Source: Aphrocallistes beatrix (taxonomy: Eukaryota > Porifera > Hexactinellida > Sceptrulophora > Aphrocallistidae). Taken from it: 64,000 bases of DNA. Of the stretch, positions 28,241 through 58,712 are shown piece by piece. The notes under the pieces were generated by a model. It was given only the letters and a program-made list of their open reading frames with translations, made no database searches and had not been told where the DNA came from. The stretch spans positions 1,116,001 through 1,180,000 of the forward strand of contig OY725488.1 in NCBI GenBank assembly GCA_963281255.1. Reading direction: 5' to 3'. A program made the position numbers and the translations under genes. Numbering within the stretch: the stretch's first letter is position 1; each line of letters starts with the position of its first letter.

Positions 28241-28748
28241 ATATTCATCGTTAGAAGCTAGTCTATTTTGCCTATTTTGAGAATTTGTTTACTTTATGTG
28301 CCTATAGTAAACAAAAATATTATATAGTTATTATATAATTATTATACAATAATTATATAATAATTATATAATAGTAATATAATAATTATATGATTATTAT
28401 ACAATAATTATATAATAGATATTATCTAATAATGGTATAATAATTATATAATTATTATTTAATTATTATACAATAATTATATAAAACTATATTCATCGTT
28501 AGAAGCTAGTCTATTTTGCCTATTTTGAGAATTTGTTTACTTTATGTGCCTATAGTAAACAAAAATATTATATAGTTATTATATAATTATTATACAATAA
28601 TTATATAATAATTATATAATAGTAATATAATAATTATATGATTATTATATGATTATTATACAATAATTATATAATAGATATTATCTAATAATGGTATAAT
28701 AATTATATAATTATTATTTAATTATTATACAATAATTATATAAAACTA
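28241..28748. repeat. 248-bp tandem duplication containing an AT palindromic tract
   Basis: The segment starting ATATTCATCGTTAGAAGC at 28241 is repeated from 28489, with a short extra ATATGATT in the second copy. Each copy ends in a long run of ATAATTATATAATTATTAT that is almost entirely self-complementary. The duplicated part belongs to the dispersed repeat seen at 24250 and 29820. Confidence 0.85.
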
Positions 28749-28749
28749 T

Positions 28750-28970
28750 ATGCTCAAATTATGCTCAAATTATGCTCAAAATATGCTCAAATTATGCTCA
28801 AAATATGCTCAAAATATGCTCAAAATATGCTCAAAATATGCTCAAATTATTAATGACGGGAAATTAACACATTATGTTCAAACTTTTTATGACGGGAAAT
28901 TAACATTATGTTCAAATTATTTATGACGGGAAATTAACATTATGCTCAAATTTTTTTATGACGGGAAATC
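28750..28970. repeat. Two adjacent minisatellites
   Basis: About eleven copies of a 10-bp unit ATGCTCAAA[T/A] run to about 28850. They are followed by three to four copies of a ~35-bp unit, TTTATGACGGGAAATTAACA plus TTATGTTCAAA. The second unit contains the first one's core (ATGTTCAAAT), so one probably grew from the other. Confidence 0.85.
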
Positions 28971-37864: not shown

Positions 37865-38135
37865 CACTATTTTATAATAATTATATGATTATTGTATAAT
37901 AATTATATAATTATTATATAATAATTATATAATAATTATATAATAATTATATAATTATTATATAATTATTATATAATAATTATATAATAATTATATAATA
38001 ATTATATAATTATTATATAATTATTATATAATTATTATATAATAATTATATAATAATTGTATAATAATAATATAATAATTATATAATTATTATATAATTA
38101 TTATATAATTATATTATAATTATTATATAATTATT
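37865..38135. repeat. Self-complementary AT tract
   Basis: About 270 bp made of ATAATTATATAA and TTATTATATAAT units in shifting orientation, able to fold into many cruciforms. The same tract type ends each copy of the 28241 duplication. It is attached to the dispersed repeat ('TGTAAACAAAAGTAAACAAAT'). Confidence 0.85.
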
Positions 38136-38655: not shown

Positions 38656-39260
38656 TATAGCTTACAAAATATGATATTCGAAATATACACCCCTAAAACA
38701 TCCATATTAATTAACCGTTGGAGGCTAGTCTCTAGCATATTTTTTAAAATTCGTCAAATGGTGTGAAAATATACACATAACCTTTTTATTGCTATACATA
38801 AAATTACTATATTTATATAAGTTATCACTTTGAAGTATTCATAACAATGACAGTCTATTGTCGTCATATACAGTCGACTCCGCTTAATAGGGTCACTGTT
38901 TAATCGGGCCACTTTTGGCAGGACCGGAATAGCTCTCACACATAGAAGCTAATGCAAAATATTTTCGGTTAATAGGGTTCTCCGCTTAATCGGGGAAAAT
39001 GTTCTCTGACCGATGTGACCCTATTAAGCGGAGTCGATTGTATATATAATGATTTCTATTTTGAGAGTGAAGCAATATATATTGTATAGAAAAGGCGTGA
39101 AAAATTGGTTCCTATTTTTTTGCAGAGGTGTGAAAAATTTCACTTAAATCTTCGAACTGATCATATACTCATCATTTGACACATATATGCCAATTTTCAT
39201 ATCTCTACGACTTGCCAATTCTTCTCTCAATTCAGACAAAAACAAAAAAAACTAAAAACA
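38656..39260 (-). repeat. Inverted copy of the dispersed repeat with a Tigger-like insertion
   Basis: Read on the minus strand this repeats the 29450-29830 unit ('GAATTGAGAGAAGAATTGG', '(CACACCTCTGCAAAAAAA)', 'GACTAGCCTCCAACGG'). The Tigger-like element at 38871-39040 (CAGTCGACTCCGCTTAATAGG ... CCTATTAAGCGGAGTCGATTG, TA flanks) is nested inside it. Confidence 0.7.
38871..39040. mobile_element. Tigger-like miniature element, 170 bp
   Basis: Near-perfect inverted ends CAGTCGACTCCGCTTAATAGG / CCTATTAAGCGGAGTCGATTG between TA dinucleotides, inside the dispersed repeat. Shares its core with 29015 and 43802. Confidence 0.88.
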
Positions 39261-39676: not shown

Positions 39677-42600
39677 TTATAGACTCAGTTTGCCCCCTTG
39701 GTTCGAGTTGGAAATGTCGATGCCATTCAATTTTCTTGAGCATCGGTTTAGTAAGCAGAACATCAATCCCCCGCACGTGTAGACCACCGGCATCATTGCA
39801 AAGAAAAGAACGAACAACGGCCAGACCGTGAAGGCTAATTAGAGAGTTGATTATAGAAGTAGTTATGACTCATGAGTATGTGACAATTACATAGCGAATT
39901 TATATAAACTTTGTAGTTCTAATCTTACCTGATTGTACAAAGTCACATCTAGTTGAAGGAGTCGTTATCTCTGTCCCGGATGAACAGTTATCGCAAGATA
40001 CAGAATAATTGGTGCTGATTGAGGGAGCTGTGGTGGTACTAACGGGTTGGTTGTACGTGTTGAATACCAGCATTCCTGTGGACACGTGAGGAGATCCGTA
40101 GAGGTTGGGGTAAACGTTAATCAAGTTGTCTTTTTCGTGTTTAGGCAATTTGCATAGAGAAGTGAGGTTCTTACACTATATTCATATGTATTGTACAGTT
40201 TACGATTATATTTAAAACTCAATCGAATTACTTAGTACGTATATACAATTCATTAGTTTACTATACCATCGGGTATCCTGTGTTTCCACTGGCACTCTCT
40301 CCGTTGGGTGGGGTGGACTGGCATAGACTAGGTTGACAGTGCAGGTATGAATTGTCTAGCAAGATAGCTTTCCTAGAATCAACCAGGAACGGTTCGAGAG
40401 AGTTGATTAGTGACAGCTCTAGAGCAAGCTCCTCAGTGAGATAAGAATTTATAGATCTGGCCGTTATCTCGAAGAGGCGCCCTTCTCTTGTAGGACAGCT
40501 ATTGGAAATGATATTTTATGTACTTACTGCTGGCAGATACGTAGAATGAAGAAAAGCCATACCTTGTTTTGATTATTTGCATAATTGCATGCTGAAAGCC
40601 AATTGATTCTCGTGGGCTGGAGCTAGAGGTGATGTAGCATGAGAGGAAGAAAGGCTGCATACCAGGAGGCACTGGAGATAATAAATCACTGTAATATTAG
40701 TATTAAAACCAGCCTGGGAAATATTTACAAGGCCATCAGCCCGAGTTTTAGTAAATCCACGGTTGCTCACTATGTCCCTCACTTTATTTTGCTGCCGACG
40801 GACTTGTTTTGATATTATAGGAACTCACCATCGCCAATCTTAACACTTGTACTGATAGATGCACCACTCCCAATGTAGGTAGGGTAGCTAGTAACTGGAA
40901 TGTTGTTGTTTATTACTTGTATCGAAAATTTACTAGGAGGTAGGAACGTGGGGGGATCAGGTGTGCTAGTACAACTCAACACTCCGACACTCCCGAGGAA
41001 TCCCTGGAGGGTTCTTGCTCGTAGCGTTGGAGATTCTGGAAGTGACCTAATAATAGTATGAAAATGATATAATCATATTAGTGTGTTGAGTCAGTACAAT
41101 CGTGTTGTAACGCTACATTACCTTCTCTCTAAAGGCGGCAGACTATCTGATGAAGATATCGTTTCGAGTCTCACCTAATGGAAATATACGTACTCAGGTA
41201 GCAATTCAAATATACATCCAAAATCTATTAAGATTAGCAATCACTCCTATGTAGGATCTCATGTCCAATTACTCGGGTTTAATTAACAAGAGTTCAGCTG
41301 GTTTATCTAATTATGAGGATTAGATAATATCGAACCTCAGTTGAATACTCCCTGATCTGTTGCTGATTGCTGTTGCCTCTAATTTCGTGGCAATTCCACA
41401 GCGGATTGGTGAGGTTGTTGGAAGCACGTAGAGTACAAGGCAAGCGATATCTAAAGCATTAATAAGGATTGTTTAATCGCTAACTGCTCAAGTTCTTATC
41501 ACAAAAGTGAGTAAAATACCGACAGTTTGTAAGTGTATGACAAAGTATTAAATTAATAAGGGAAATTGAAGTAGTGAAATTTCATAGTAATGTCATTATC
41601 AATCTTATTAAGCTCAAACGTTGACATTGATAAGTAATTTGAATAATTCGATTTGTGAATACCAAAGTCGGTCAGGTCGATTAAAACAAGTCTTTGCGAC
41701 GGGCGGCAAGTCATAGACTGAACAACTTTAAATTTATTAATCAGAATCCTTATTAGCTATGATTTAATGGATCTCGCTCCATCTAGAATGAATTGGTAAT
41801 TAGCATTTAAATAAAAATTATAATCATTATGGATTAGCATGCCGAAACTCACCCATCAGAATTTCTACATGAGGTGTAATTAGAAATTCCTAGCTGATAG
41901 GAATATACGGCCAGAATATCGGTAGCAGATTTCTTTAAGCAAAACATGTACGAGTCTGAAGTACAATGCTCAAACACGATCGTGTCCATCAGGAACTGGT
42001 GAAAGGTGTAGTTCGTCTCAGTCATTGAATCTATGGAGAAAGTATATTTCAGTTTTTTCAAAAAAGAAATTTTAAATTATAAGGAACAAGAATATTCATC
42101 TTGATGAGGTCAAGAGGAACTTAGCTATCAACTTAGTACGCACCAATGAAATCAATAGTAATTTCATCAGGCACCTCTGCGTTGAGAAACAAATTGACAT
42201 GATCGTAGGCTGCCTTGAGTTGTTCTAACAGAGTGTCGGGGTTGTTGGAGAACTGAGAACCTGCAAGCGTGGTCATGTGCTCCAGTGGGTCAGAGATAAT
42301 TTTTGCTTCAGAATGATCGCTTATCTAAAATCAATTGATAGACTGTCAATAGATTTTACAAGGTTGCGACGAAAATCTCAAAATTCTCCCCCTTTTCTGC
42401 AATGTAATAATACGCCCTGGCATAACATGCAGTTACCTTAATGTTGAGATAGAGGTCTTGAAATCCTATTTGATAAATATTCCAAATGATGGAGCCAGTA
42501 GAGAGAAGTACGAGGTCAATTCTCTGATTCGGAATCTGATTGGCGATAAGATAGAAATCCACTTCTGGCTTGGCATTAGCAAAACCAAAAGGATTGGAAC

Positions 42601-45600
42601 TCTGTTCTGTTGTGTTTAACAGGGCACCAATGACCTAAACATCATAATAAGATTATTTTAATTCAACTGTTAGATCGCGAATTGAAATAAAATAGTAACC
42701 TCACCATGGAATTCCCAATTCCATCTTGGAAACCATCAATGCACCCAACGGCTTGGTTTTCTATCTCACTACTCCTGTCGTACACCTTGAGACGCTGACT
42801 GATGAAGAGATTCGCAGGTGCGTTATTGATTACAGATACTAAATCTTCACAATTCTGAACCCCAATAGCAGTGAACTGAGTATCTAAGAATTTTAATATT
42901 ATAAGTTATTCTGTTTTATAGAAAATATAGAGCTAACTCACTTTTCCCCAACTGCAGCAGGATATAGTTTCCAGGAGAGGAGGTAGCTGCTAGTGTGAGG
43001 CTGGTGAGGAGCTGAGAGGCAAAATGTAGGCTCTCAGCGAAGTTAGATGGAATAATTTGAGGATTCAGAGAGATTCCGAGTGGAGCAGTAACTGATGAAG
43101 CCCGTGAGAACTAGCGAGTTTATAATTAATTAGGTATTTCCATAGCATACAAAACACATAAAAACACATAATACTTACGAATATTTTAATATTTTGCAAT
43201 TCTGTGACATGATGTGCCCTGATGATCCAAGTTACAGGCTGAGAAGTTGACAGGACGATGCTAGCATTATTACTGAATGTTCCTTTGATGAAGTAGGGTT
43301 GGAGGTCAAGCTACAGCAGTATACAAAATATTACGAGTCCACTCATACTAGTCTAGTGTTTCAAGCATCATAAACCTATTCTCACGAATATGAACATACA
43401 TAAGATAGTATAAATGAAATGAATTATTCTTAATGAGTTTCCTATTTACTTAACTAAATTTAATTACACTTGAACTAATTATGTAACAGAAATATATTGT
43501 GAGACACATGGCAATCATTCTTGTCGAAAATTGAATAAAACATACCGTTATTCGAAAATTAATTAGATTGTTTGAAGTTACAGATTTTGAATCATGGTTA
43601 GTTAATTTTAGGTTAGAAACATTGTATTATCCTTTCTCATAGGCGCGACTAGGTTCTGATCGCTGGGTGGGCAACTTGGCATATTGCTTAATATAGCTTA
43701 GCAGTGGGGTTGCCAGGTGTCCGGTTTTGATGTAATTTTGTTCGGTTTTAGGTTTTCATGTTTGAAACGTATCTAGCAAATTTAGAATTGATATAAAGTT
43801 ACATTCGACTCTCCGCTTAATAGGACCAGCGGTTAATCGGGCTAACTGCTTAATCGGACTACTTCTGGCAGGACCGGAAAAGTTCTTACACATAAAAGCT
43901 AATACAAAATATTTTCGGTTAGTTCTCGACTTATTCGGGCCAAAATGTCCTCTGACCGATGTGGTCCTATTAAAGCGGAGTCGACTGTATATATATTTAA
44001 AATATTTTAGCGCATAGGCTAGAGCAGGGGTCGGCAACCCAAGGCACGCGAGCACTAAATTGATGGCACGTGGAGTTTAAAATAAATGTGGGTCGACAGA
44101 CCGACATTTACGTAGATTCAGGGTCGGCAACTCTATGCAAGCGTGCCACTGGCACGCAAGGTCATAAATATGTTGATATTATAAGTAAACTGGCACACTT
44201 CATTCAAAAGGTTGCCGGTCCCTACTCTAGAGTATCTAACCCACGTACTGAAATGCTGCAGCGGATATGTTCAAATATGTTTGCATATAGGTATATCTTA
44301 AATCAATGTGTCATAGGATTAACGCATCTAAGAATCCGTCTATAATGATCTCAAAGATGAAATTTTATGTGTCCGGTTCTGATCATTTCTAAATCTGGGA
44401 ACCCTACTTAGCAGGGTGGGCAAGTGCCCACCTAAAATGAATATATAGTTGCACTCATGTCCCTTCTAACTACTACTAGTAGTAGTATAAGAATAAAAGC
44501 TATTCGGAAACAACTATTTTAATCCTTCTCAAGCCTCCACTTGTCCTCATCCTTGTATATCTTCTTTTCTTTCTCCAGCTTATTGAGGTGGTGCACTAGA
44601 TTGTCTCTTGCTATTGGTATCAAATCCTTTGCCACACCACTGTACACACTATTGAAGATATCGTCAGTAAGGATAGGGACTGTTGCCTTTTTCAACACAT
44701 CCACTATCTGATCTTCTCGAGAATTTCTGTGCTTTATGTACTCAGTTATCATGGCTACTCCATTCAGTATTACCGTACCATGTCCAGGATAAAGTTTGTC
44801 GGGGTTGAAACTTTTGATCAGTTCTAGGGACTTCATGTATGAAGAGAGGTCTTCAAAAGTAGTTGATCGTTGCCCTAGCAGATTATCACCGCAAAAAATT
44901 GCATTTTCTTCTTTCAATAGGAAACAGAGATGATCATCGGTATGGCCAGGAGTGTGTATGACACGGAATGTTGCTCCTTCTATCTCGAACTCTTCTCCGT
45001 CTTGCAAATATTGGTAAGAATAACCAAAAGGGAGAGCCTCGTTTTCAAAAGAGACATCTATACTCTTGTGCTTGAGAAGAGGTGGGACTGTGCCTAGGAC
45101 TTTACACACATCCTTTATTCCTCCGATATGATCAGAATGTCGATGCGTTAGCAGAATTTTCTCAATTGTCGTTTCGCTCTTTTCTAATACGTCTCGAAGC
45201 ACAGATTGATACTCGGAGATGTTTGGATCTCCGGTGTCAATTAGCACCCGTTTCGGTCCCGTCCCAACAAGATACGTGTTAGTTCCTTGCAAGGTCTTGG
45301 GTCTTGGGTTCATCCCTAGGATCCGAATGACTCGCTTTGAGAGGTGAGTAACAGCTTCAATGTGATCGAGTTGTTGGAGAAATTGAGGAACCTTAGATGC
45401 CATGTTCGCATATTATGTACCCAATTTCCCTACTAATATACTGTTAACAAACACTAAATATTCGGATTTATTAACTTCCCTAGATTTACTGAACTAAATT
45501 TGATTGTGGGTGTTTCTGAATACTTCAATCCTAAAATTAACCATCATTTAGCTCGCATACGAATTCATGTGGTATAAACCGAAGTAGTATTTCAACTTGT

Positions 45601-47687
45601 TTAACGCTAAAATGAGAAATTATTCTGACTTCTTCCTCTATAGTTAGGTATATTAAAAACAGACCCATAGCCATGGGGGGGCCTGGGGGGGCCTTGCCCC
45701 CCCAAAATAAATAAATCACTTTGAAATTTGAAATTTGATCTAAATAATGGCCCCCCCCTAAAATATATCTAGCCCCCCCAAATAATATTCGGTCGCTACG
45801 CCCATGCCCATAGCTATCCCATAACCACACATCTGCTGTGGACTATTCGATGTATGCACATGGGTGGTCGCAGGAACTCAACAAGCCCAGAGTGAGGCGG
45901 GGCCAAAGAAAAATATCCGGGGTCCTTACTATGATTTGGCTTAGGTCGATCCAATGAAATCCGGAGCCACAGAATCAAACTCAGGGCAAATGCACCCCCC
46001 CTCCCCCCCTGGGACCGCTCCTGTGTATACATAACATATTTAAAGGGAGAGGAGGGAATATGTTGTTTAGCCTGTTTTATAATGTAATTAATTAATAATT
46101 TAAAGTTGATGATGCCACCAGTTCCTAACTGCAATACCAAATCATGTCTTAACCCGAGGATTACTTGGGGTCAAAGGTATAAATAGAAATGACCCAGCTT
46201 TCACTTTCATTTTCAGTTTACTTTCAATTAACTTTCACTTTCAATTCAACATTCCTGGACGTGCTCGGGTTAATATAATGTGTGTAAAGTAACTACTATG
46301 ATAATGTGGACATTATTTTCTAAAAAAGAATTAAGCCTAGTACTTCAACTAAACATTAATTAGACAATTAAGTAGTTTCAAGTGGACTCAGTACTTATTG
46401 AGTTGAATCATGTTCTGGTTACTAAGTTGATCAGGTTACAGGTACTAGCTGCAGCAGACATCTTTACGCTATAATTAGAACGTGTTCCTAAATTTGCGAT
46501 GAAGTAAAAAAATGGGATTCTATGACTAATTTTTCTTATATATTAAAACGCTAGGATTTTTTTGTAAGAAGTATATAAAATGTTTTAGTTTGTATAAATT
46601 AGGCTAGCTAGTGAGTATACTTCATGATAAACATATTTTATAAATTGAATCAACAACACCTCCTTTGCAATTGAATCCAAATGTTTTTAAAAATTAATTT
46701 CATAACATTTATTGTTGTATTATCCAAGTTTTTTAATGAATAAAGAATAAGGTTAGACATAATATTTAATTATTAAAATACTAATACTATTAGTGTATAA
46801 TGCAACAGGAGGTGATAAATAGATGTAGACAAACCAACCTTGACTAATTGCGTGCCAGATCTAACATCAATGTGCAGTAAGTAATTGTTTACAATGTCAC
46901 CATCAGAAGACTCGCATCCATTGTAAGTGATAAAAGTTCCTTTAGCTAGGCTCACCTTTTCCAATGGGAATTCTTGCAGTGTGCAGCAACTGGCTGTAAA
47001 GAAAATTCAGTAAATGATGGATCCATCATCTTCTATGCAATTGTGACTGCATAGTATATACACAACATAATAGTTTATTAATCAAATTAATAACCAACGT
47101 ATTATACATCACGCAACTGGTTTGGGTATGATTCTACTCTAAATTGAATTAACAAATCTCTTTAATCATGTTTTATCATACAGTACGTGTTTATGTATAT
47201 TTGTAAGGAAAATGTAGTTCTAAATTCGTATGTTCAGACACTGCTGACGATTCTATTGAGAATATTCACAGTAGTAACTAGGTATTTGTTTGAGAAATTT
47301 AATGAAAATACCCCATTAAATAGAATTTTTCGTTTCCTACAGACGAGTACAGTGCAGCATGATGCACAATATTTATAAACAGTGTCTTCAGAGTGAGGGA
47401 TTATGCAGAATAAACTTCTTGTGTAGAAAAGAGACGAATGGAAGGGTAGAAAACACCAAATTACTGACATATTTGTCTAAAACTGGACATATGATTGGAA
47501 TGCGATTTATCCGTAAACTAATTGTCTATACCAAAATACTACTTGACTACTATTTGACATGATTAATTAATCATTAACACATATTGAACGTAATTATAAT
47601 TCATTAATGAAGAAGTACTTTACCTTCAAACGTAAACAAGCACAGGGCAGTGAAATATATGAAGAATGATATCCCAAACTCTCTCAT
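39677..47687 (-). CDS. Betaglycan (TGFBR3)/endoglin-like ZP-domain membrane protein, fifteen exons
   Basis: In vertebrates betaglycan and endoglin are co-receptors that present TGF-beta family ligands. Exons: 47624-47687, 46839-46993, 43179-43310, 42942-43110, 42705-42883, 42437-42634, 42144-42324, 41853-42030, 41336-41450, 41122-41174, 40829-41046, 40563-40671, 40267-40498, 39929-40175, 39677-39834. All borders are GT-AG and phases sum to 796 codons. Layout: signal peptide (MREFGISFFIYFTALCLFTF); orphan-type domain 1 (ITYNGCESSDG, LDLQPYFIKGTFSNNASIVL, QPVTWIIR); domain 2 (EVDFYLIANQIPNQRIDLVL, GSIIWNIYQIG); ZP-N from about exon 8; ZP-C (VLSCTSTPDPPTFLPPSKFS, PFFLSCYITSSSSPRESIGF, SCPTREGRLFEI, YLHCQPSLCQ, CKNLTSLCKLPKHEK); one helix (WPLFVLFFAMMPVVYTCGG); a ~22-residue tail ending KLSL, possibly a class II PDZ ligand. 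Many N-x-S/T sites. The CYI..SSSSPRES and later SCPT order matches betaglycan's ZP-C. Ligand binding is inferred only. Confidence 0.82.
43802..43987. mobile_element. Tigger-like miniature element nested in a hAT element, 186 bp
   Basis: Starts CATTCGACTCTCCGCTTAAT and ends GCGGAGTCGACTG with TA on both sides; core shared with 29015 and 38871. Confidence 0.82.
44025..44224. mobile_element. hAT (Charlie-like) miniature element, 200 bp, nested
   Basis: Ends CAGGGGTCGGCAACC / GGTTGCCGGTCCCTA are typical of hAT-Charlie elements. The flanks GGCTAGAG and CTCTAGAG match at 6 of 8 positions, consistent with an aged duplication. GGCACGC motifs repeat internally. Confidence 0.78.
44519..45403 (-). CDS. 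LACTB2: LACTB2-type metallo-beta-lactamase-fold endoribonuclease, nested in an intron
   Basis: LACTB2 is a mitochondrial single-strand RNA endonuclease of the MBL superfamily, close in fold to glyoxalase II. 294 residues, one exon, ATG MASKVPQFLQQL. Metal ligands are complete: H87, H89, D91, H92 (THRHSDH), H154 (TPGHTDDH), D173 (CGDNLLG) and H208 (YPGHGTV). Diagnostic: NPRPKTLQGTNTYLVGTGPK, RVIHTPGHTDDHLCFLL, ENAIFCGDN. The C-terminal winged-helix part (VHHLNKLEKEKKIYKDEDKW) is present. No clear mitochondrial presequence beyond a weakly basic start. It lies wholly within intron 2 of the betaglycan-like gene on the same strand, so a host transcript must splice across it. Being intronless, it could have arrived as a retrocopy, but no poly(A) tract or flanking duplication is evident. 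Confidence 0.95.
   Translation of the reverse strand: MASKVPQFLQQLDHIEAVTHLSKRVIRILGMNPRPKTLQGTNTYLVGTGPKRVLIDTGDPNISEYQSVLRDVLEKSETTIEKILLTHRHSDHIGGIKDVCKVLGTVPPLLKHKSIDVSFENEALPFGYSYQYLQDGEEFEIEGATFRVIHTPGHTDDHLCFLLKEENAIFCGDNLLGQRSTTFEDLSSYMKSLELIKSFNPDKLYPGHGTVILNGVAMITEYIKHRNSREDQIVDVLKKATVPILTDDIFNSVYSGVAKDLIPIARDNLVHHLNKLEKEKKIYKDEDKWRLEKD
45672..45806. mobile_element. hAT-type miniature element, 135 bp, perfect 8-bp duplication
   Basis: Ends CATGGGGGGGCC and GCTACGCCCATG, flanked by CCCATAGC at 45664-45671 and 45807-45814. Runs of seven or more G or C give strong hairpins (GGGGGGGCCTTGCCCCCCC). Confidence 0.85.
45859..46023. mobile_element. hAT-type miniature element, 165 bp, 7/8 duplication
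   Basis: Left end CATGGGTGGTCGCAGG and right end CCTGGGACCGCTCCTG are imperfect inverted repeats. The flanks TGTATGCA (45851-45858) and TGTATACA (46024-46031) differ at one position. Confidence 0.78.
46994..47623 (-). other. Intron 1 of the betaglycan-like gene
   Basis: 630 bp between the signal-peptide exon and exon 2. AT-rich; short open frames on both strands show no domain. Confidence 0.7.
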
Positions 47688-48220
47688 AATGTCTGAATAT
47701 GTTCAAAGATCACTAAAATATTCTTGATTTGATCCAATTTATCAGTTAGAATGCAACTTGCATATCAATTACCATTTGCTCGAATAACAATTAGATATAT
47801 ATAATCTTCTAAAGCTCTCTGCAACCAAGTCATAGTTCTACCTACTAACATCATCAATGCAGAGCCTAATTGGCTAATTTTATTAGGACTGCTATCTTGG
47901 TTGGAGAGAATAAGAATGGTGACTAACCTTGCATTTTATGTAGAAGCCAGAAAGTCTAGCTTGAAAATAATTATTGCTCCACATTTAATGTGGTATGCAC
48001 CTGGATCTCGTGGCAGCTCATTATGTATTGTGGCCATTTTCACCGACTTGAAGAATCCTATTCTATCTTGTAGCACAACAAGCGCATACGTAGAACATCT
48101 TAGATCACTAGCATTTCCAAGCTCTTAATTAATGTCACATACACTGTTTGATATGCTATCCTAAAATTCATCAATTTATGATTATAATTACAAAGTATTA
48201 ATATAGTTGTAATATATCCG
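47688..48220. promoter_or_regulatory. Divergent intergenic region shared by the betaglycan-like and BTB genes
   Basis: The two start codons face away from each other 533 bp apart, so any promoters for both must lie in or near this stretch (unless upstream untranslated exons exist). I cannot identify specific sites. Confidence 0.4.
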
Positions 48221-49210
48221 ATGAAAAAGTCTCTATCAAAATGCCGGGGTAGCAAGAGTAAAAAGTGTTTATCTCACAAAAACAGCAACAAGGGAGCAGA
48301 TCAGGACATACAGCTGGCACTGGCTCTCTCCATTTCTATGCTACCTCAAGTGCAAGACAGCCACATCACACCCCGGCAGAAAGAGCCAGGATTTGAAGAG
48401 GCCACTCAAGCAGCAGCTATTAAGAGAAAACGAGTGCGTCTCGATGAGACAGAAGTACCGACACTCCTTGTCACCTCTGATCAAGACTATTCAGCTTCAG
48501 TATTGCGGAGAGCTCATAACCTCCTGGATGTCTCTTCTTACGGGACACCTGCTGACTCGAATTCAACAAGCGAAGATCACCAAGATTGTTCTCTCTGGAA
48601 TCTAGCTTCCCTCTCAGAGCTAGAACTAGATCAGGAGTTTGTAGTCGAGCTCTTGAGAAACTCGCTGCCTATAGATACTGCCCAGAAACCTGACATTACT
48701 GCGGACTCCTGCACTCTACTCTACAATAGTGGGTTGCCTATCATGTCTTCAATCCTCTCAAACTATCTCTTCAATCCTTTTCTAAGCGACACCGTTCTGG
48801 TAACGAAGGATTCTCACAAGATCCCGTCCCACCTATTCATTCTGGCGGCTCACTCTGCTCTGATTAGAGACCTGATAGCAGAACGATACAACATGAAGAG
48901 GATACTGATGAGGGGGCACGAAGTACACACGGTCGTTCCTCTCCTAGAGTTTATGTACTTAGGGAAATTTCAATTTGAAAGTATTCATCTCGAGGTGATA
49001 AAGAAACTGGCTAGCACATTACAGATGGATGCCTTCCTCACTTGCTTAGAAGAGCATCAGAGAATTGCAAATCCTGTACAGAAACAAGAAAGTTTTGTTG
49101 AAGCTCAACTCAGTCAGGAAAATGTTCATACTGAATCAAAACCTCCAACTTCACTGCCAGAATTATTTTCTAAAGTGAAAAAAGATTGTTCTGCATTTGA
49201 AATAAGCTAA
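48221..49210 (+). CDS. BTB/POZ-domain protein with a UIM-like helix
   Basis: 329 residues, single exon, from ATG MKKSLSKCRG. The N-terminus is basic (possible nuclear signal SKCRGSKSKKC). Residues about 28-40 (DQDIQLALALSISML) fit the ubiquitin-interacting pattern of acidic residues, then hydrophobic-x-x-Ala-x-x-x-Ser. The middle is acidic and Ser-rich. Residues about 185-285 form a BTB fold: NPFLSDTVLVTKDSHKIPSH, LFILAAHSALIRDLIAER, VVPLLEFMYLGKF, IKKLASTLQMDAFLTCLEEH. There are no Kelch, BACK, MATH or zinc-finger partners. The combination of an LALALS-type helix and a BTB is reminiscent of SLX4 (BTBD12), but the UBZ and SLX1-binding parts are absent; I give that low weight. Confidence 0.82.
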   Translation: MKKSLSKCRGSKSKKCLSHKNSNKGADQDIQLALALSISMLPQVQDSHITPRQKEPGFEEATQAAAIKRKRVRLDETEVPTLLVTSDQDYSASVLRRAHNLLDVSSYGTPADSNSTSEDHQDCSLWNLASLSELELDQEFVVELLRNSLPIDTAQKPDITADSCTLLYNSGLPIMSSILSNYLFNPFLSDTVLVTKDSHKIPSHLFILAAHSALIRDLIAERYNMKRILMRGHEVHTVVPLLEFMYLGKFQFESIHLEVIKKLASTLQMDAFLTCLEEHQRIANPVQKQESFVEAQLSQENVHTESKPPTSLPELFSKVKKDCSAFEIS

Positions 49211-49737
49211 ATTGTAAGATTTATTCGTTAGGAATTTTATCACTTGTGTAAAGACTTGTTTTAATTTTATGCCAAAATTCACTTCAATCTTGCATAACTA
49301 ATTCCTTCATTGAAGTAGTTTTATTTATTGGTGCAGTTCCTGGATGTGAGACACTAGGATTACTCATAAAATTAACCGGAATTTAAATATAATTCGTAAC
49401 TGGTATGATATCTTACTATGGTCAGCCGTTACTTTGTCAAATTCAAATTTTTATGAAATATCTTTTTATAAACATTGTATTAGTTTAAAGATTGATTTTG
49501 ATATGAATATCGTGATAATTAAGTTCGGACCTCCCAGGGTCAGGGAGGGTCATTATTTGAGAAAATGTTTATTAGTTATATGGGATTCAGGGGAGGGGGG
49601 AGGGATTCAACCATATTGTACCACCAAGGTTATGTTTCTACCTGTGGTTCAACTAATTGATTATATTAGATACTACAAATCCCAATTACCTAACGAATCT
49701 ACTGTAATATTAAATTTAGAGACTATTAATTTAGATT
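49211..49737. other. Spacer upstream of the first TPR-SET gene
   Basis: 527 bp, AT-rich, with a GGAGGGGGGAGGG run at about 49592. No bounded element or coding exon is recognised. Confidence 0.6.
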
Positions 49738-52134
49738 ATGATGGCAGACTTTGGACAGCTTTTCAATTTAAAAATGGAAAACTTTGAACACCAATTCCAT
49801 TTAAAAATGGAAGAATATTGTGAAAATGTGCCAGAAGATGATCAACGTATCCTTAGAAAATACTTTGTTGTCGTTGGGATGACATATAAGGACATAAGAA
49901 CGACCCGAATCGGGGCTGTTAAATCAGAACAAGAGGTATTCATGGAGGCATTCAAACAGCATTGTGGTGACTTGCCGGAACGTCGATTTAAGAAGGCGTT
50001 CAACATATTAAAAAAAGCACATTTATTCTGCGAGCCGTTGTACCATAAAATATTAGGCCTAAACCACGTATCATTCCAGAATGATGCATTTGTACATGGA
50101 AGCAAATGTCATTACAAAAAGGAATACTTATTGGAAAGAATCTCCAATAAACCTGACCCATCCATGCGCCTCATGCTCAATAACACTGCACAAGATACAG
50201 TAGGAGCTTGCAAAGTGGTAACTTCTGTTGATTTTGATAGATTTGAACAAATGAAGATAATTGAGTTAGAACCAGGAAAAATACATACAAACAAATGTAT
50301 AAAAGCTACTCTTATTGACGATGGTTTTAAGATGACAGCCTATCATACTGTAATTGAGGATATCCATGGTCAATGCGCTAAGCTGTGCATCTACCATATT
50401 ACCCCCCTTTTGCTCAAATCACTCAAAAAAGGTGTGAAAATAGCTCTTGTCAATCCTCATTATAAATTAGGGGACCTGGATGGGCATTATTTTATCAGGA
50501 TGGAATCTCCTGAAGAGGTGATTGTAATACAAGAGAAGAAACAAGGAAATATTTTGGACCAAGAAAATTCGAATGTAGATAAATCTAGTGATGATTACAG
50601 AATTGAAGGGAACAAGTTTTTCGCATCAGCTCAATACAGTGAAGCAATTGCTTGCTACACTTGTGCAATTGACAGAGACGCGTCTAACCCCATTTATGTA
50701 GGCAATCGAGCTCAATGTTACCTCAAGTTGAAGTTGTACGAAGAAGCTCTTTTGGATTCAGAAGCAGCTGTAAAATTGGATCCTAACACGGACAAGCATC
50801 AGTATAGGTTGGCCATGGCATGGTCTGGATTGGGTGATCACGGAAAAAGTTGTGAAATCTTGAAAAATCTCAAAAAGGAAAATTCTGATGTCAAATCTGC
50901 TTTAGCTAGAGAGAGAAAGCTACTTGCTAACAACAAAGGGGAATTCGATTTTAATTTGATAGAAAATTTATCAAAAGAAGGGAGAGAGTTAGAAATAGGT
51001 GATTACATAGGCCCAATTACCATAGACATCTCCAGCACACATGGACATGGTGTCTACGCGACCAGAGATATCAAGAAAGGAGAACCAATTGCCATCTGTA
51101 AAGCTTTAGGATTTTCAAGGGACAATAAAAATAATTCAAATTTATTAATTGAACATGTCACAATGGGAAAATCTTCAACGAAAAATACTCGGGAACTTAT
51201 TGACTCTGTAACCGCCAAAGTAACTCAATCCAAATTAACAGCTTTTCAAGTTTTCAACTTAGCTCTCAAGCATCAACATCAGGAGCAGATACCAATAGAA
51301 CTCTACACTAGTAAAGGTTTTGAATACGTCAGAGAGAAATCGAAGCCACCTTACCAAATCGAACAAATACGAAAGATTATCCAAGATAACGAGTTTGGTT
51401 TTTTACCAGGTATGAATGATGGCCCTAGTGGATTTTGGCCGATTTTATCATATTTTAACCACTCATGCCTCTCAAATTGCACACCTAACTTCTTTGGAGA
51501 TATTTGTGTCATTCGCGCTTGTACCGATATTCCTAAAGGAGTTGAAGTATGTTCTAGTTTTTTTTCAGTTTTCGGCAAGACATCTCTTGAAGAACGTAAA
51601 GCCGCATTACTGGAAAACTGGAACTACGTTTGCAGTTGTGAGATGTGTCGTTTCGAATCAGATCCTAAAAACAAGAATCTGCTCGAGCGAGGAATTCAGC
51701 TCATGAATCGTGCAAAGAAGATTTCATCTCCTGAATACAACCAGAGTGGAATGATACAGCAATCTCATTTCAAGCTATTGAACGAAGTCTTTACTGTTGC
51801 TAAAGAGATGAACTTAGGCCGGACAAGATTCAATTCATCAATTTGGAGAGCTATTCACTATTTAACTAATATCGGAATTGATCTGAAGGATCATGAGCAG
51901 TATTATGAAGCTTTGATGCAGGCGAGACCTTTCCTTTGTGAGTATGATCTTGAACATGAGCTATTTTATTGGATTAAGTGCAATGGATTCGTGAAGATGT
52001 GTCGAGCAAATGTACCAGAAGAATTCAAAATTGAGAGTCAAATGAATTTACACCAGATCGAAATTCTAATGAAGTCAATCGATGTAGGCTATGCTGATAA
52101 GCGTTTTAAATATGCATGGTCTAATACCTACTAG
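49738..52134 (+). CDS. TPR-SET protein of the SMYD4-like group, lacking MYND, copy 1
   Basis: 798 residues, single exon, starting MMADFGQLFNLKMENF. Regions: helical N-terminus (about 10-100); a beta-rich region (about 155-270: IHTNKCIKATLIDDGFKMTA, KLCIYHITPLLLKSLKKG, VKIALVNPHYKLGDLDG) like that preceding TPRs in plant and animal TPR-SET proteins; TPRs (about 280-410, GNKFFASAQYSEAIACYTCA, NPIYVGNRAQCYLKLKLYEE); SET from about 440 (GHGVYATRDIKKGE) through N574-H575-S576-C577 and the post-SET cysteines C632, C634, C637. The zinc-binding MYND finger that SMYD proteins carry inside the SET is absent. The catalytic Tyr expected about ten residues after the IPKG turn is Phe608/609 (GVEVCSSFF), so methyltransferase activity is doubtful (inference). 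The N-terminus carries an 11-residue duplication (FNLKMENF / FHLKMEEY) missing in copy 2. Confidence 0.85.
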   Translation: MMADFGQLFNLKMENFEHQFHLKMEEYCENVPEDDQRILRKYFVVVGMTYKDIRTTRIGAVKSEQEVFMEAFKQHCGDLPERRFKKAFNILKKAHLFCEPLYHKILGLNHVSFQNDAFVHGSKCHYKKEYLLERISNKPDPSMRLMLNNTAQDTVGACKVVTSVDFDRFEQMKIIELEPGKIHTNKCIKATLIDDGFKMTAYHTVIEDIHGQCAKLCIYHITPLLLKSLKKGVKIALVNPHYKLGDLDGHYFIRMESPEEVIVIQEKKQGNILDQENSNVDKSSDDYRIEGNKFFASAQYSEAIACYTCAIDRDASNPIYVGNRAQCYLKLKLYEEALLDSEAAVKLDPNTDKHQYRLAMAWSGLGDHGKSCEILKNLKKENSDVKSALARERKLLANNKGEFDFNLIENLSKEGRELEIGDYIGPITIDISSTHGHGVYATRDIKKGEPIAICKALGFSRDNKNNSNLLIEHVTMGKSSTKNTRELIDSVTAKVTQSKLTAFQVFNLALKHQHQEQIPIELYTSKGFEYVREKSKPPYQIEQIRKIIQDNEFGFLPGMNDGPSGFWPILSYFNHSCLSNCTPNFFGDICVIRACTDIPKGVEVCSSFFSVFGKTSLEERKAALLENWNYVCSCEMCRFESDPKNKNLLERGIQLMNRAKKISSPEYNQSGMIQQSHFKLLNEVFTVAKEMNLGRTRFNSSIWRAIHYLTNIGIDLKDHEQYYEALMQARPFLCEYDLEHELFYWIKCNGFVKMCRANVPEEFKIESQMNLHQIEILMKSIDVGYADKRFKYAWSNTY

Positions 52135-56204: not shown

Positions 56205-56376
56205 GTCTGAAGCTTTACTGATATGTACCAAAAGCGTATAAAGAATTTTTATGTGAGATATTTGTTATCAAAAGTTCTACTGATATTTAAGTAGAATTTT
56301 CCAGTTCTACATCTTGTTAATGAAATTTGACCACTTTTGATCGCTTTTAGTATACTGTAGATAACTTACGTAGATA

Positions 56377-58712
56377 ATGGCTGCTGAATTTGGTTTAAAT
56401 TTCGCTTTAAAAATGGAAGAATATTGTGGAAATTTACCTGAAGATGATCAACGTATCCTTAGAAAATACTTTGCTGTCGTTGGGATGACATTTAAGGAGA
56501 TAAGAGCGACCCGAATCGGGGCTGCTAAATCAGAACAAGAGGTATTCATTGAGGCATTAAAGAAGCATTGTGGTCATCTGCCAGAAAGTCGATTTAAAAA
56601 AGTGTTAAACGTATTAAATGAAGCACATTTATACTGCGAACCGCTATTCATTCAAATGATGAAAGATCCAAACAATTTGTCATCCCAGAATGAGATATTT
56701 GTACACGGAAGCAAATGCCATTACAAAAAGAACTTCTTGCTAGAGAGAATCTCAGACATATTTGACACTTCAATGTCTTCTTTCCTTGTCAAGGAGACAG
56801 TACAAGATACCCTAGGAGCTTGCAAAGTAATAACTCCTGTTGATTTTGATAGATTTGAACAAATGAAGATAATTGAGTTAGAACCAGGAAAAATACATAC
56901 AAACAAGTGTATAAAAGCTACTCTTATTGCTGATGGTTTTATGATAACAGCCTATCATACTGTAATTGAGGATATCCATGGTCAATGCGCTAAGCTGTGC
57001 ATCTACCACATTACTCCCCTTCTACTCAAATCACTCAAAAAAGGTGTGAAAATAGCTCTTGCCAATCCTCATTATAAATTAGGGGAGAAAGATGGATATT
57101 ACTATATCAGAATGGAATCTCCTCAAGAAGTAATTATTGTAAAAGACAAAATGAAAGAAAATGTTTCAAATAAAAAGGATGAGAAATTAAATAAATCTAG
57201 TGATGATTACAGAATTGAAGGGAACAAGTTTTTCGCATCAGCTCAATACAGTGAAGCAATTGCTTGCTACACTTGTGCAATTGACATAGACGCTTCTAAC
57301 CCCGTTTATGTAGGCAATCGAGCTCAATGTTACCTCAAGTTGAAGTTGTACGAAGAAGCTCTTTTGGATTCAGAAGCAGCTGTAAAATTGGATCCTAACA
57401 CGGACAAGCATCAGTATAGGTTGGCCATGGCATGGTCTGGATTGGGTGATCACGAGAAAAGTTGTGAAATCTTGAAAAATCTCAAAAAGGAAAATTCTGA
57501 TGTCAAATCTGCTTTAGCTAAAGAGAGAAAGCTACTTGCTAACAACAAAGGGGAATTCGATTTTAATTTGATAGAAAAATTATCAAAAGAAGGGAGAGAG
57601 TTAGAAATAGGCGATTATATAGGCCCAATTACCATAGACATCTCCAGCACACATGGACATGGTGTCTACGCGACCAGAGATATCAAGAAAGGAGAACTAA
57701 TTGCCATCTGTAAAGCTTTAGCTTTTTCAGAGCATGTTAATGATGGGGATCCAGATCTCTTCATCGAGCATGTCACAATGGGAAAATCTTCAAAAAGAAA
57801 TACTCGGAAGCTTATTGACTCTGTAACCGCCAAAATAGCTCAATCTAAATTGGCAGCTTTTCAAGTTTTAAACTTAGCTCTCAAGCATCAACATCAGGAG
57901 CAGATACCAATAGAACTCTACACTAGTAAAGGTTTTGAATACGTCAGAGAGAAATCGAAGCCACCTTACCAAATCGAACAAATACGAAAAATTATCCAAG
58001 ATAACGAGTTTCGTTTTTCATTTAATAACAATAATGAACCAAGTGGATTTTGGACGATTTTAGCATATTTAAACCATTCCTGCTTGTCAAATTGTGCTAT
58101 GAGTTACTTTGGAGACATTTGTGTCATTCGCGCTTGTACCGATATTCCTAAAGGAGTTGAAGTATGTTCTAGTTTTTTTTCAGTTTTCGGCAAGACATCT
58201 CTTGAAGAACGTAAAGCCGCATTACTGGAAAACTGGAACTACGTTTGCAGTGTGAGATGTGTCGTTTCGAATCAGATCCTAAAAACAAGAATCTGCTCGA
58301 GCGAGGAATTCAGCTCATGAATCGTGCAAAGAAGATTTCATCTCCTGAATACAACCAGAGTGGAATGATACAGCAATCTCATTTCAAGCTATTGAACGAA
58401 GTCTTTACTGTTGCTAAAGAGATGAACTTAGGTCGGACAAGATTCAATTCATCAATTTGGAGAGCTATTCACTCTTTAACTGATATCAAAATTGATCTGA
58501 AGGATCATGAGCAGTATTATGAAGCTTTGATGCAGGCGAGACCTTTCCTTTGTGAGTATGATCTTGAACATGAGCTATTTTATTGGATTAAGTGCAATGG
58601 ATTTATAAAGATGTGTCAAACTAATATACCAGAAGAATTCAAAATTGAGAGTCAAATGAATTTGCGTCAGCTGCAATTTCTATGGAATAAGATTCATGAT
58701 CTTTTTCTGTAG
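56377..58712 (+). pseudogene. TPR-SET paralogue, copy 2, interrupted by a 1-bp deletion
   Basis: Homologue of the 49738 gene in the same orientation, intact from ATG (MAAEFGLNFALKMEEYC) through the helical, beta, TPR and SET regions, including GHGVYATRDIKKGE and the NHSC motif. At 58250/58251 it lacks one T relative to copy 1 (TGCAGTGTGAG against TGCAGTTGTGAG). The first post-SET Cys is kept, but the next residues shift into VRCVVSNQILK and the frame ends at 58320 (647 residues). The original frame continues undamaged to 58712. As it stands the protein would lose the post-SET and C-terminal helical part. Everything else is under no visible decay, so a very recent lesion, an assembly error or a truncated functional product are all possible. 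Similarity to copy 1 is patchy: blocks near identity alternate with diverged ones. Confidence 0.75.

Follow-up and report, generated by a model that had tools for sequence, protein, structure and literature searches.

The question raised by this locus is whether a minus-strand gene of the window (the whole stretch of 64,000 nucleotides analysed here) encodes a relative of betaglycan (TGFBR3) and endoglin (ENG), the co-receptors of TGF-beta family ligands, and in what kind of animal. Judged from sequence comparisons, the gene product is very probably a member of the TGFBR3/ENG family in a glass sponge. In the simplest reading, it would be an orthologue of the ancestor that existed before the betaglycan/endoglin split.

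The gene was rebuilt from the letters of the window as 15 exons, from the start codon at 47687 to the stop codon ending at 39677. The exons join in phase into 793 codons plus a stop, giving a predicted protein of 793 residues. All 14 introns are of the GT..AG type; 11 are 58–161 nt long and the remaining three measure 402, 630 and 3528 nt. Stop codons are met on read-through in 13 of the 14 introns, and intron 3 has no stop, yet its length breaks the frame. The G+C content is 0.441 in exons and 0.305 in introns (intron 2 left out). The protein has a type I layout, with a signal peptide, a membrane helix at about residues 743–763 and a 30-residue tail with KLSL at its end; hydropathy exceeds 1.6 only at residues 4–27 and 738–770. 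An earlier note on this DNA had described a phase-matched chain of 15 exons with a signal peptide, one membrane helix and a short tail, and its coordinates were reproduced exactly. The four motifs named there were located at residues 97, 280, 559 and 584. The exon chain stands as a prediction; the stated length of 795 residues has to be corrected to 793, and the term "intron-poor" does not suit a gene with 14 introns within 8 kb.

The likeness of the N-terminal half to the orphan domain of TGFBR3/ENG goes beyond that of shuffled sequences, with and without fixed cysteines, and the homology covers the whole length of the domain. The orphan domain of zebrafish betaglycan was the best match among three tried, with 69 of 310 aligned positions identical. 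The internal repeat of the orphan domain reached no significance by sequence, either in the sponge protein or in endoglin. The shuffle tests and the agreement of intron positions and phases with human ENG beyond chance, described below, bear out the proposed betaglycan/endoglin relationship of this half. A chance likeness of the N-terminal half is rejected on the shuffle and intron tests.

Introns were compared with human ENG only, in alignments made from the proteins alone (L-INS-i, E-INS-i and G-INS-i modes). We take the limit between ENG exons 2 and 3 to be 219/220. The other limits (67/68, 360, 524–689, 690–816, 817 and 992–1134) come from the available parts of papers on hereditary haemorrhagic telangiectasia; limits 523 and 991 were deduced from neighbouring ones, and published changes, e.g., p.Trp261Arg and p.Arg93*, served for a check of the residue numbering by eye. 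Intron 1, of phase 1 in both genes, falls where the signal peptide ends; it lies outside the alignment and was left out of the counts. Introns 3, 4, 6 and 7 have the same phase in the sponge gene and ENG, with column offsets of −2, 0, −2 and −2 (L-INS-i), −2, 0, −2 and +5 (E-INS-i) and −2, 0, −2 and −6 (G-INS-i). The clearest shared intron is intron 4 (phase 1), at ILLQLGK/N in the sponge and ILLRLGQ/A in ENG. Intron 2 agrees in phase but is 6–12 columns away, and intron 5 agrees in neither phase nor position. At a tolerance of 2 columns, 4, 3 and 3 of 6 introns coincide in the three modes, respectively, which random placement equalled in 0, 21 and 43 of 200000 cases; at 6 columns, 4, 5 and 4 introns coincide, equalled in 7, 0 and 17 of 200000. 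Homology of some orphan-domain introns between the sponge gene and ENG is supported. In the ZP half, the single likely match by phase precedes the membrane helix; a phase-1 intron is common at this place.

Intron 2 (3528 nt) contains a separate intronless gene (45403–44519, same strand) with metallo-beta-lactamase and winged-helix matches in Pfam. We take it to be LACTB2-like, and it is perhaps a retroposed copy. The length of this intron, the gene it encloses and its donor GTTGGT, which deviates from the usual splice-donor consensus, would fit two genes wrongly joined, with exons 1 and 2 belonging to another gene; we regard such an error as very improbable and retain the 15-exon model.

The earlier note saw likeness to betaglycan from end to end. 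This stands for the orphan domain; it does not for the ZP half, where neither pairwise nor profile comparison with betaglycan/endoglin gave significance, nor for the tail, which is unmatched. Pfam yielded ZP-C alone, under the cut-off both with the whole protein (E 0.0026, 18.3 bits) and with residues 366–688 (E 6e-4, 20.4 bits), and a ZP-C domain is probably present. With the same library, human betaglycan gave ZP-C, ZP-N and one chance match, and nothing for its orphan domain, so the expectation that conventional domain searches miss most of the protein proved correct. The ZP region of human endoglin gave ZP-N only, at 24.1 bits versus a cut-off of 24.7. Since human endoglin is also under the cut-off, the weak ZP score of the sponge protein is no argument against membership. 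The NCBIfam scan of the protein returned no family, and phmmer against the Protein Data Bank (PDB) at E 10 returned no TGFBR3/ENG family member. The suggested profile–profile check against TGFBR3/ENG was run with 3 or 2 family sequences and gave an hhalign probability of 20%, the set being too thin to decide. A search of the own genome for ZP gave zero matches, which does not show absence.

The sub-threshold ZP-C match, the phmmer result and the low hhalign value could be explained by a sponge ZP-domain surface protein of matrix or adhesion type, unrelated to betaglycan, whose N-terminal likeness is due to chance or composition. We consider this highly unlikely, as the shuffle tests with and without fixed cysteines favour homology, the introns agree in position and phase (information unused by the alignments) and the sponge loop SNPF occupies the place of SNPY. 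Generic ZP proteins such as uromodulin have a ZP-C domain, as the sponge protein probably does, but form filaments and are not known to have an orphan domain; nor is TGFBR3L known to carry one.

Betaglycan resembles the sponge protein in its orphan domain followed (probably) by a ZP module and one membrane helix. The two also have corresponding cysteines and, it seems, a counterpart of F49 and a long binding loop, which contains SNPY in human betaglycan and SNPF in the sponge. Betaglycan differs in that the sponge protein has no SGXG, a weak ZP match, a tail ending in KLSL and a much shorter linker from the orphan domain to ZP, a stretch of 88 residues in human betaglycan. Endoglin shares the domain order, introns 3, 4, 6 and, less surely, 7 in position and phase, and comparable lengths of exons 1–4 and 7 (the exon 2/3 limit as assumed above), and is not known to have glycosaminoglycan sites, the sponge protein having no SGXG. 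Unlike the sponge protein, it lacks the Phe and the loop common to sponge and betaglycan, and its ZP introns differ except for that before the membrane helix.

The own genome is a 100.5-Mb assembly of 28 contigs, including a mitochondrial one (C28, 17,996 bp). When it was searched with the sponge protein at E 10, a second full copy did not turn up. The sole other place is C4:2017094-2017260, which by eye is a piece of exon 2, altered by a 2-base insertion, and some flanking intron. This fragment adjoins sequence resembling, by eye, the stretch at about 38660–39240, downstream of the gene, and is a small duplication. No relative was found in the prokaryote genome contigs scanned with the protein. 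The contig (C1) was judged not to come from a bacterium or another non-animal source, as C1 also bears a TGF-beta ligand and an MH1 match.

C28 carries mitochondrial COX1 in a frame with TGA read through. Compared with bovine COX1 from the PDB, 12 of 14 TGA codons stand opposite Trp and TGG is not used (count 0), and the 16 AGA codons stand opposite Ser (5), Ala (4), Gly (3), Asn (2), Lys (1) and Arg (1). Nine further open reading frames were scanned: atp9 (ATP-synt_C, E 2.6e-12), cox2, atp6, cox3, nad3, nad5, nad1, cob and one more Proton_antipo_M protein; all nine (9/9) and COX1 are on one (+) strand. A bilaterian host was rejected because of atp9 on the mitochondrial DNA (mtDNA); we know of no bilaterian mtDNA that carries this gene. 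In glass sponges, according to the part of PMC2267718 available, mtDNA keeps atp9, all genes lie on one strand, AGR codes for serine (not so in demosponges) and TGG is rarely if ever used. Because these traits match, the host can most probably be placed in the Hexactinellida, in agreement with the non-bilaterian host considered in the earlier note. The cox3 gene is apparently split (C28, 8806–9646): the first frame spans positions 1–149 of 258 in the COX3 profile, and an open reading frame in the next frame follows. The same part of PMC2267718 reports programmed frameshifts in glass-sponge mtDNA.

The genome also contains components of the TGF-beta pathway: five ligands over the cut-off, three MH1 matches and one GS motif over the cut-off. 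The Activin_recp search gave zero matches, which does not show absence; the Wnt family search gave 0 matches, which likewise does not show absence, yet is consistent with glass sponges. The available part of PMC5684314 counts five TGF-beta ligands and three Smads in Aphrocallistes, and its glass-sponge survey names ligands and kinase receptors, with betaglycan/endoglin absent from that list. The C1 ligand carries a CC doublet, and its nearest PDB relative is TGF-beta 3. Of the contacts E99, L101, S102 and N103 given in the accessible part of PMC11865472, it keeps L and N, as numbered by eye.

The part of PMC11865472 at hand states that betaglycan holds TGF-beta via a loop and F49, that this loop, PNSSSAFQ in zebrafish, has two extra residues in tetrapods and cartilaginous fish, and that F49A, L210A, L213A, F250A or D253A each abolishes binding, D253A perhaps via a disturbed fold. 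The sponge loop QSSNPFGFAN is of the longer form, opposite human PNSNPYSAFQ, and a Phe (F42) stands in the F49 column. The columns of F250 and D253 hold Ala and Lys, with a Phe one place earlier, and for interface leucines 208, 210 and 213 two alignment modes disagree on the sponge residues. The loop and F42 are suggestive of a betaglycan-like binding surface. None of the four SG dipeptides is part of SGXG, the glycosaminoglycan attachment motif. The protein is therefore not filed as betaglycan proper and is probably not a proteoglycan.

It is fairly probable that this single-pass cell-surface protein works as a TGF-beta-family co-receptor. The orphan domain would use the loop and F42 to grasp a TGF-beta-type dimer at its finger edge, and the juxtamembrane ZP-C could provide a second ligand contact. 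The captured ligand would then pass to type II and type I kinase receptors, and the protein would heighten sensitivity to scarce ligand. The C1 ligand (C1:2836473-2836778), which shares the contig with the gene and shows the TGF-beta-type CC doublet, is a likely partner. A family member by descent might instead be a structural or adhesive surface protein that does not serve TGF-beta-family ligands. The interface leucines are not clearly retained, SGXG is missing, and the TGF-beta-type ligand of the sponge has V and N in place of K97 and E99, the TGF-beta contacts of betaglycan ZP-C (numbering of the available part of PMC11865472, placed by eye). The long loop and F42 in a betaglycan-like state and the ligand and MH1 genes in the same genome speak for the co-receptor, and within family membership the structural or adhesive role seems rather unlikely. 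The coordinates of the gene are given in Table 1.

Table 1. Exons and binding loop of the sponge TGFBR3/ENG-like gene (window positions; sequence-based predictions)
Feature	Position	Strand	Residues and content
Exon 1	47624..47687	-	1-21; start codon and signal peptide; phase 1 at end
Exon 2	46839..46993	-	22-73; N-terminal stretch, C25, C48; F42 opposite zebrafish betaglycan F49
Exon 3	43179..43310	-	74-117; putative orphan-domain repeat unit, QPVTWIIR; end phase 0, at most 2 columns from ENG intron 3
Exon 4	42942..43110	-	118-173; remainder of putative first repeat unit; end phase 1, in the column of ENG intron 4
Exon 5	42705..42883	-	174-233; C185, C221
Exon 6	42437..42634	-	234-299; putative second repeat unit, GSIIWNIY; end phase 0, at most 2 columns from ENG intron 6
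Loop QSSNPFGFAN	42575..42604	-	244-253; counterpart of human betaglycan loop
Exon 7	42144..42324	-	300-359; orphan domain ends; end phase 1, ENG intron 7 being 2 to 6 columns away depending on alignment mode
Exon 8	41853..42030	-	360-418; linker, putative ZP-N begins; C382, C390, C414
Exon 9	41336..41450	-	419-457; putative ZP-N; C424, C439
Exon 10	41122..41174	-	458-474
Exon 11	40829..41046	-	475-547; probable ZP-C, C500
Exon 12	40563..40671	-	548-583; probable ZP-C, CYITSSSSPRES (C559)
Exon 13	40267..40498	-	584-661; probable ZP-C, SCPTREG (C585), C-x4-C (C638, C643)
Exon 14	39929..40169	-	662-741; juxtamembrane stalk; phase 1 at end, directly before membrane helix
Exon 15	39677..39834	-	742-793 and stop; membrane helix ~743-763, 30-residue tail

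Several other features were observed in the window. A short element, CTCCGCTTAATAGGG, occurs in two copies, downstream of the gene (38866–39045, inverted repeat) and in intron 2 (43811–43973), and looks like a non-autonomous DNA transposon. A single-exon BTB/POZ protein is encoded at 48188–49210 (+). It is followed by a tandem pair of genes closely similar by eye (49735–52134 and 56374–58320, +); the first encodes SET and TPR, and the frame of the second diverges from the first before its end. At 28241–28969 and 37869–38135, an 11-bp unit, ATTATATAATA, forms arrays, and ATATGCTCAAA adjoins the first array.

Echinoderms, the sea urchin among them, have betaglycan, according to the available parts of PMC11239237 and PMC10381214. 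Our literature search in a limited collection found no betaglycan/endoglin report for sponges, although databases may contain automatically annotated TGFBR3-like proteins of invertebrates. The main texts of PMC10280926 and PMC5684314 do not use the words betaglycan and endoglin. Both co-receptors have been studied mainly in vertebrates, and a sponge member, if true, would date the co-receptor to the root of animals, beside the ligands and kinase receptors, so that its age may be about that of the animals as a whole. The sponge protein would also serve as an outgroup for asking which vertebrate binding mode is older, and there is a slight preference for the reading in which the long binding loop and the Phe are ancestral and the BMP9 mode of endoglin is derived. 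Glass sponges are reported, in the part of PMC10280926 available, to be without Wnt ligands, and TGF-beta-family signals may therefore carry more of the patterning in these animals.
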